64,000 nt of DNA. Source: Candidatus Dadabacteria bacterium CSP1-2 (GTDB lineage: Bacteria > Desulfobacterota_D > UBA1144 > Nemesobacterales > CSP1-2). Position numbers and translations under genes: made by a program. The DNA is taken from NCBI GenBank assembly GCA_001443445.1, contig LDXN01000006.1, positions 1-64,000 of the forward strand, in the 5' to 3' direction. Positions 34-29,686 of the stretch are shown here, in pieces; position 1 is the first letter of the stretch; every line of letters begins with the position of its first letter. A model generated the notes under the pieces. The model was not told where the DNA came from, searched no databases, and saw nothing but the letters and a program-made list of their open reading frames with translations.

Positions 34-798
34 TTATTTTGTGTTCAGCCAGTCCCTTGCATTAAACTCTTTCCCTGTAATACCAACGGACTCATCAGAT
101 GCCAAATACAAAAACACATGTACAATATCCTCAGGAGTAGGTAATGTCATCGGATCTTCACCAGGATATGCTCTTGCTCTCATTTCTGTTCTAGTACCAC
201 CTGGGTTAACAGAGTTTACTCTTACGTTAGCAGAGCTTAGCTCGTCTGCTAGAACCTGTGTTAATCCCTCAAGACCAAACTTAGAAGCAGCATAAGCACC
301 CCATAGCGCTTTACCTCGTCTACCGACACTTGACGAAACATTGATAATCGAACCACTTTTTGATTTAAGCAGAAAAGGGAGAATCGCTTTTATTACAAAA
401 AACTGGCCATTAAGATTTACATTAATCACTTCTTCCCAAATATCCTCAGGGTAATCTAAAATAGAAGCGCGAACACCCAGGATACTTGCGTTATTTACAA
501 GGATATCTAGCTTATTCCATTTTTCCTCCACTCGATTAGCAAGCCTTTTTATATCATCTTTATTTACAACATCAGCTTTTACATATTCTATCTCTCCATG
601 TGGTAGTATTTGATGCGCAGTGTGCATCAAATGGAAATTAAAAGATTTTGAAATCTCTTGGCACGCATCCTTTAAGCTATCTTCATTGCGTCCACAGATT
701 ATTACAGAAGCGCCTTCTTTTACATAAGCCTTCGCGATAGCCTTTCCAATTCCGCCACCTGCACCGGTAATCAGTGCTGTTTTATCTTTTAGCCTCAT
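34..798 (-). CDS. SDR-family NAD(P)-dependent oxidoreductase
   Basis: TGAGGGIGKA Rossmann motif, NNAS, YAASK catalytic motif; ATG at 798 preferred over the TTG at 807. Confidence 0.9.
   Translation of the reverse strand: MRLKDKTALITGAGGGIGKAIAKAYVKEGASVIICGRNEDSLKDACQEISKSFNFHLMHTAHQILPHGEIEYVKADVVNKDDIKRLANRVEEKWNKLDILVNNASILGVRASILDYPEDIWEEVINVNLNGQFFVIKAILPFLLKSKSGSIINVSSSVGRRGKALWGAYAASKFGLEGLTQVLADELSSANVRVNSVNPGGTRTEMRARAYPGEDPMTLPTPEDIVHVFLYLASDESVGITGKEFNARDWLNTK
603..645. repeat. Palindromic element copy A (core ATTTGATGCGCAGTGTGCATCAAAT, 608-632), inside the SDR CDS
   Basis: 25-nt near-perfect palindrome; same architecture and flanks (GTAGTAT...) as 28673-28714. Confidence 0.65.
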
Positions 799-27995: not shown

Positions 27996-28667
27996 ATGGA
28001 TTCTAATTATTTTAAACTTTTATTAATTCAAGTTCCTGTTATCCTCTTTGCTCTTACTGTGCATGAGTTCTGTCACGCTTGGGTTGCACATTTGCTTGGT
28101 GATGATACTGCAAAGAGACAAGGTCGATTGACCTTAAATCCTATCGCGCACTTAGATGTACTTGGAACAATACTAATGTTCATAGCAAGGTTCGGATGGG
28201 CTAAACCCGTCCCAGTTAATCCTCTAAATTTTAAGAACCCTAGAAAGGGAATGCTTTTAGTAGCCCTTGCTGGTCCACTATCCAACTTAATCATGGCTAT
28301 TGCCGCGGGAGTAGTAATTAGGTTTATAATTCCTGGTTTAAACCTCCCACTATCTGGAGCAATGTCCGTGTCACTTGTGCTCCTGATACTAACACTCCAA
28401 TTCGGCCTTGCTCTCGCTATATTTAATATGATTCCAATAGCCCCACTTGACGGTTCTAGGGTTCTATATGGTCTTCTACCTGAAAAACAGGCTTATGAAT
28501 ATAGACGATTTGAGCCTTATGGCATATTAATCCTGTTTGCTCTTTTTATCTTTGGTGATCGAATTTTTTCATATATTCTCTGGTATCCAGTCTCAGTTCT
28601 TACCGAGGTATTGTCAGGGTATAATTACTTCCAACTCACACATCTTTGGAGGTCACTCGCTTTATGA
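27996..28667 (+). CDS. Site-2-protease-like M50 metallopeptidase
   Basis: HEFCHAW zinc motif, GRLTLNPIAHLDVLGTI, NMIPIAPLDGSRV. Confidence 0.93.
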   Translation: MDSNYFKLLLIQVPVILFALTVHEFCHAWVAHLLGDDTAKRQGRLTLNPIAHLDVLGTILMFIARFGWAKPVPVNPLNFKNPRKGMLLVALAGPLSNLIMAIAAGVVIRFIIPGLNLPLSGAMSVSLVLLILTLQFGLALAIFNMIPIAPLDGSRVLYGLLPEKQAYEYRRFEPYGILILFALFIFGDRIFSYILWYPVSVLTEVLSGYNYFQLTHLWRSLAL

Positions 28668-29686
28668 AAACCGTAGTATCTGATGTGCAGTATACATCAG
28701 ATAGGAATAAAAGAATTCTTAGCGGGATGCGACCTACGGGGAAACTACATCTTGGTCACCTCCACGGTGCCTTAGAGAATTGGCGTGAGCTTCAGAATAG
28801 GTATGACTGCTTTTATTTTATCGCTGATTGGCACGCTCTTACCACTGATTACGCTGATCCATCTGGGATAAGGGAATCTACCTTTGAGATGCTTGCTGAT
28901 TGGATAGCGTGTGGCGTTGACCCAAACAAAGCCACTATTTTCATTCAATCACATGTAATAGAGCATGCTGAGCTAGCCTTGCTCCTCGCAATGATAACCC
29001 CACTAAGCTGGCTAGAGCGAGTTCCCACTTACAAAGAGATGAAGGAAGAGCTTCGAGATAAAGACCTTGCCACTTATGGTTTTCTCGGCTATCCACTACT
29101 TCAGACAGCGGATATAATAGCTTATAAAGCCAATTACGTACCTGTTGGAGAGGATCAGGTACCACACCTAGAGCTTGGGAGAGAAATCGTAAGGCGGTTC
29201 AATTATCTATATGGTGATACTTTTCCAGAGCCCCAACCCCTTCTTACAAGGGTTCCAAAGATCCTTGGGACTGATGGAAGAAAGATGAGTAAGAGTTATG
29301 GTAATGCTATATATCTAAGTGACACCCCTGCCGAAATAACAGAAAAGATAATGAGGATGTATACGGATCCCAGAAGGCTTAGGAGGACTGATCCCGGAAA
29401 TCCAGATGTCTGTGGTATTTTTTACCTCCATAAGTTCCACAGCTCTGAAGATGATATATCTATGGTTAACAGAGAATGTCGAACTGCTGGGATTGGTTGT
29501 GTTGATTGTAAAAAGCTACTTCTGCCTAGTCTAATTAGTGAACTTGCACCTATACGGGAGAAACGAGAAGGGCTTATGAGGAAAAAGCATGAATTAGAAG
29601 AAATAATTCAAGAGGGTGATAAAAAGGCAAGAGAAGTAGCTCAAGAAACCCTCGAGGAGGTAAGGAAAAAGGTTGGTCTCAACTGA
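28664..29686 (+). CDS. trpS: Tryptophanyl-tRNA synthetase
   Basis: ILSGMRPTGKLHLGHLHGAL, KMSKSYGN. Confidence 0.96.
   Translation: MKTVVSDVQYTSDRNKRILSGMRPTGKLHLGHLHGALENWRELQNRYDCFYFIADWHALTTDYADPSGIRESTFEMLADWIACGVDPNKATIFIQSHVIEHAELALLLAMITPLSWLERVPTYKEMKEELRDKDLATYGFLGYPLLQTADIIAYKANYVPVGEDQVPHLELGREIVRRFNYLYGDTFPEPQPLLTRVPKILGTDGRKMSKSYGNAIYLSDTPAEITEKIMRMYTDPRRLRRTDPGNPDVCGIFYLHKFHSSEDDISMVNRECRTAGIGCVDCKKLLLPSLISELAPIREKREGLMRKKHELEEIIQEGDKKAREVAQETLEEVRKKVGLN
28673..28714. repeat. Palindromic element copy B (core ATCTGATGTGCAGTATACATCAGAT, 28678-28702), inside the 5' end of trpS
   Basis: Same 25-nt architecture and GTAGTAT flank as 603-645; compensatory changes in two stem pairs. 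Confidence 0.65.

Follow-up and report, generated by a model that had tools for sequence, protein, structure and literature searches.

A 39-nt hairpin unit inserted in frame in protein genes, and in its own loop, in a small group of uncultured bacteria

A hairpin unit of 39 nt is inserted at unrelated sites in the genome of Candidatus Dadabacteria bacterium CSP1-2 and in those of its closest relatives, within protein-coding genes and between them. The unit is a mobile element, and we hold this part of the interpretation to be close to certain: it has moved over evolutionary time as a piece of constant length, it leaves no target duplication, it lands preferentially in its own loop, and its stem stays paired. 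The copies are best explained, in our view probably, as members of one family of miniature mobile hairpins that are non-autonomous. The further proposal that the substrate is the folded single strand of DNA and that a Y1/HUH enzyme moves it in trans is more tentative, at somewhat below even chances.

Two copies, A and B, lie in the window, the 64,000 nt of contig LDXN01000006.1 that were analysed. Copy A (603-641, plus strand) is located in a YciK-like short-chain dehydrogenase (SDR) gene on the minus strand (34-798), the frame of which is intact. The first-pass annotation had described a palindrome in this gene and a peptide read from it in antisense; the palindrome, ATTTGATGCGCAGTGTGCATCAAAT, lies at 608-632 with GTAGT directly before it, and the peptide, FNFHLMHTAHQILPH, corresponds to 15 inserted residues (598-642, minus strand), read from the antisense frame of the unit. 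When SDR orthologues were aligned, as that annotation had proposed, the segment was missing in all 11 of the closest (60-76% identical). The GTAGT that had been taken for a left flank proved to be the head of the inserted unit (603-607), which continues with a left arm (608-616), the loop GCAGTGT (617-623), a right arm (624-632) and the tail GGAAATTAA (633-641). From alignment with a solved YciK homologue and general knowledge of the fold, we place the inserted residues between helix 2 and strand 3 of the Rossmann fold.

Copy B (28673-28711, plus strand) has the same architecture and lies near the start of trpS (28664-29686, plus strand), as had been noted, with its head at 28673-28677, left arm at 28678-28686, loop at 28687-28693, right arm at 28694-28702 and tail at 28703-28711. 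Its sense frame encodes VVSDVQYTSDRNK, so that the gene reads MKT-[13 codons]-RILSG, as opposed to xSSRVLSG in a genome of the same order (G007) that has no unit at this point; the insertion is common to this genome and its sister species, G001. Between copies A and B the stem changes are compensatory at the two pairs originally claimed (T-A/C-G and C-G/T-A), and as single-stranded DNA the two copies have predicted folding energies of -8.7 and -7.4 kcal/mol (z about -5). TrpS itself shares 94% identity with that of the sister species and 74% with that of another family, yet only ~42% with those of same-family genomes, a pattern that suggests transfer or differential loss of the gene.

The original search pattern occurs at only these two places in the window and was not found in any of 100 shuffles. 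With up to 3 mismatches, it occurs six times in the whole genome, and the reversed-pattern control gives no match. Pattern searches together with the stretches read gave at least 23 in this genome (G000), 31 in the second species of the genus (G001), 7 in G002, which belongs to a different genus of the same family, and a single copy in a third genus (G006). Three further genera of the family lacked the pattern, and ~95 other genomes yielded no copies beyond chance; the lone one-mismatch match in a distant genome is probably a chance occurrence. A covariance model built from seven copies returned about 24 distinct places at E values up to 0.06, many of them with quite different stems. Viral contigs held no exact match to the unit, and no family among the Rfam covariance models matches it.

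The layout is shared by 61 copies, comprising the 23, 31 and 7 from the three richest genomes: a 5-nt head (consensus GYAKT), a 9-nt arm, the 7-nt loop GCAGTGT, a second 9-nt arm and the tail GGAAATAAA. Loop and tail are nearly invariant and the arms vary, with 36 distinct arm pairs, in which 307 of 324 cells are paired (shuffle mean 216, maximum 238; slid versions 80-132). Since the scan that collected these copies had itself required 7 of 9 pairs, the collection was repeated with loop and tail only, pairing not being required. This gave 27 places in 437 kb, of which 20 pair at seven or more of the nine positions and 16 at all nine; the shuffled genome gave no matches. Shuffled, reversed-pattern, cross-genome and loop-and-tail searches together rule out a chance palindrome. 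The head varies (GTAGT in 13/61 copies, GCAGT in 10/61, GTATT in 10/61). In one stem class, ATTTCGAGC/GCGAGAAAT, a tandem G-A mismatch is kept in every copy (for example at L023, L095, L120 and L132). The sense frame of the unit spans 13 codons, has no stop and translates as V-V-x-x-x-Q-C-x-x-x-G-N-K.

The same sites can be seen filled and empty between closely related genomes. In this genome leuS carries two units, one nested in the other, which add 26 codons; the site is empty and reads straight through in the sister species (G001; flanks 98% and 91% identical) and in G002. Conversely, the sister species has three units (+120 nt, 40 codons) in a tolC-like gene whose counterpart in this genome is empty; also in that species, an intergenic site (L090) is longer by 39 nt. 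In G006, IleS exceeds seven orthologues by exactly 13 residues, AVFLSQFGRNGNK. At the clean sites (leuS, the tolC-like gene and intergenic L090) no target site duplication was found. The empty sites lack the head GTAG, and we therefore assign it to the unit. The insertion polymorphism at these three sites also rules out an operator or regulatory site as the sole identity of the sequence. Less clean is metG, where the copy is read in the antisense frame, as in the SDR gene; the segment is 66 nt longer than in G002 and also holds another repeat, and is thus not a single-unit insertion. Overall, the initial proposal of a dispersed palindromic element, in frame, missing from orthologues and conserved in its pairing, is supported: the segment is not universal among SDR orthologues, and the motif is enriched.

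Genes with clear in-frame copies are those for the SDR, trpS, leuS, metG, the tolC-like protein and ileS, and all of the host frames remain open. Four of these six (trpS, leuS, metG and ileS) encode class I aminoacyl-tRNA synthetases, a share that appears to exceed their fraction of coding DNA, whether through loop tolerance or something else. A PPOX-like gene was considered as a further in-frame host and rejected, since the copy in it does not keep the frame; the gene (L036/L315, L247) is apparently interrupted by the copy in both species of the genus, with a 72-codon frame left. Copies also touch the ends of genes. In sppA the head TAG of the unit donates the stop codon, and a gene for an M16 peptidase with a signal peptide may take its start codon from the tail ATGGTAATAAAA of a copy at L041 (1503-1543), again in both species.

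Units are also found within each other. Approximately 19 copies, in a listing of which some rows were shifted by one base or were chance pairings and were read by hand, lie inside the loop of another copy; they involve at least 10 different stem pairings and include one triple nest. The outer loop measures 46 nt (7 + 39) in all cases but one, with the arms in register. Many nested copies are intergenic, and selection on reading frame therefore does not explain the constant length. Nested junctions take two forms, in which the inner copy follows either the G or the GCA of the loop; one or two bases are changed in each form. Tandem copies have a period of 38 to 42 nt. Neighbouring copies share their orientation in 9 of 9 cases, and inner copies likewise have the orientation of the outer copy. 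At L033 the inner copy (about 1503-1543) has an inverted loop, ACACTGC for GCAGTGT, and normal arms, head and tail. Many copies lie inside a dispersed repeat, TGTCATTGCGAGGAG...CGAAGCAATC, and others inside a CTCCCCCTTGCGGGG...GGATGGGG repeat (L024, L027, L030, L032, L095, L121, L123, L127). Such composites may themselves be mobile, and some copies may have spread with them and not on their own, a point against the best explanation. No longer autonomous version was found between split halves in the stretches read.

The orientation of the unit follows its genomic surroundings. Intergenic copies are found in 15 unidirectional, 8 divergent and 1 convergent settings, near the expectation from region lengths. 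All 15 sites between co-directional genes are oriented with transcription, and 29 of 38 sites have the unit on the G-rich strand, counts that rest on crude ORF calls and include some composites with other repeats. Because genes themselves favour the G-rich strand (436 of 645), transcription direction is the stronger correlate. This pattern does not match lagging-strand insertion alone, and counts against the best explanation.

Seven Y1_Tnp matches were found in this genome, four of them full-length genes. No unit lay within 1.5 kb of the Y1 loci examined, which were all seven of this genome, most of those in G001 and G002, and further ones from related genomes. A role of Y1 genes as local partners was accordingly rejected, as none examined is flanked by the unit and the hairpins beside them are unrelated. 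One Y1 transposase gene (L008) is flanked by an inverted repeat, AAAAAAGGG/CCCTTTTTT (1170-1190 and 1887-1911), and in this resembles the TIRYT genes of PMC3733652. Outside nested sites no fixed target tetranucleotide was seen; at the nested sites there is the GCAG of the loop. Both the lack of a unit near the Y1 loci and the lack of a fixed target weigh against the best explanation.

A mobile hairpin would account for these observations in the following way. The unit inserts in net steps of 39 nt without target duplication, often within the loop of a copy that has the same orientation, and its stem remains paired as the sequence changes. As 39 is 3 x 13 and the sense frame is free of stops, an insertion can add 13 residues and leave the protein unbroken, and selection would then retain insertions at tolerant sites. 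The substrate may be the folded single strand. The most plausible enzyme acting on it in trans would be an HUH/Y1 transposase of the RAYT/IS200 kind, by which the hairpin would be carried into single-stranded DNA that lies exposed, for instance in the loops of hairpins. A stronger version, which we regard as less likely than not, is a self-targeting mobile hairpin of invariant length (39 nt, or 13 codons) for which its own conserved loop is the landing site and which acts as a protein-coding cassette, moved by an undescribed enzyme or a transcription-linked route.

Three other explanations were weighed against the mobile hairpin. The copies could have arisen by replication errors without a transposase, with template switching between hairpins copying the unit into a loop and quasi-palindrome correction matching the arms. 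The CAG-like words shared by head (GCAG), loop (GCAG) and tail (CAG/AAG) offer microhomology, the uniform orientation of nested and tandem copies fits, and the arms would be paired without selection; the inverted loop at L033 is what hairpin template switching would produce, and suggests a mutational reason for matched arms. Clean single-unit insertions at unrelated sites (ileS, trpS and the intergenic site) are not easily explained in this manner, and we consider replication errors an unlikely source of the family.

We give slightly less weight again to RNA elements held by selection in transcripts, as binding sites or for stability or translation control, with spread secondary. The agreement with transcription at all 15 co-directional sites, the conserved loop and tail beside a variable stem, and tails that in some cases lead into a Shine-Dalgarno sequence speak for such elements; against them, copies occur in unrelated genes and in coding regions in both senses (antisense in SDR and metG), their presence differs between sister species, and Rfam offers no matching family. 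Insertion of an RNA through reverse transcription would likewise explain orientation with transcription, and the tail is A-rich, but RVT_1 has no match in G001, the genome richest in copies, or in G002. The single match in this genome is a fragment with two stop codons (L338, G000:C7:35666-36232). This route is very improbable.

The mobile hairpin offers a clear natural case of selfish DNA entering coding genes, essential ones included, with the frame unbroken. The same unit is visible filled and empty between sister species, and exact nesting, in which a loop of 7 nt becomes one of 46 nt, allows the insertion step to be read and tested. The insertions suggest how essential enzymes, aminoacyl-tRNA synthetases among them, could come by lineage-specific loops. 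The carriers of the 39-nt hairpin are a small group of uncultured bacteria.

Literature searches, incomplete in coverage, found REPs, REPINs and Rickettsia palindromic elements (RPEs) but no description of a 39-nt hairpin family. The likeness to RPEs drawn in the first-pass annotation holds as an analogy: RPEs, as reviewed in PMC10969869, are palindromic, lie in frame in unrelated conserved genes and extend the protein. In that review they measure about 150 bp (100-150 bp is taken here as the typical size of an RPE) and form several families, which sets them apart from a much smaller, self-nesting unit with a head, loop and tail that is equally similar to GTAG REPs. REPINs (PMC3116915) are also non-autonomous and hairpin-forming and are thought to be mobilised in trans, but consist of an inverted REP pair forming one hairpin, whereas adjacent copies of the unit are always direct or nested. 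The ends of IS200/IS605 elements and derived MITEs share a hairpin in one strand and the lack of target duplication; no fixed target word was seen outside the nested sites of the unit, and no autonomous copy with its ends was present in the stretches read. A MITE of a DDE transposon would have a target site duplication, of which there is none at leuS, the tolC-like gene or intergenic L090.

A further comparison is with GTAG REPs (Di Nocera et al. 2013, PMC3733652). These too are short palindromes (20-40 nt) with an unpaired end motif, to be set beside 39 nt and a 5-nt head that is sometimes GTAG; they show compensated stem changes, are lineage-specific, have some intragenic copies in frame, and carry a TAG in the head that can end an upstream ORF, as in sppA. 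In GTAG REPs, terminal GTAG is present in >90% of members of most families (exact in only 13/61 copies here), the RAYT gene is flanked by the repeat (the unit flanks none of the Y1 loci fetched), inverted (HH/TT) dimers predominate (9/9 adjacent pairs here share orientation), and most REPs are placed downstream of genes, where the flanking genes share a direction or converge (15 unidirectional, 8 divergent and 1 convergent setting here, close to the expectation from region lengths). The fixed 7-nt loop and conserved 9-nt tail are further differences from the REPs as described there. REPs have been reported inside other palindromes (same source), and exact 39-nt nesting in the own loop was not found in the portions of the literature on REPs and relatives that were searched. 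Both the GTAG head and the hairpin are recognised by TnpA-REP enzymes, whose tolerance differs between systems (PMC8266576). Because the unit lacks the conserved tag, the RAYT linkage and the inverted pairs and differs in size, we do not file it as a GTAG REP or an RPE; it resembles both in its working and lacks defining features of each, and is placed in neither family. Our best reading is that these miniature mobile hairpins are REP-like and form a new family, which extends the range of REP-like elements beyond the RAYT-linked families.
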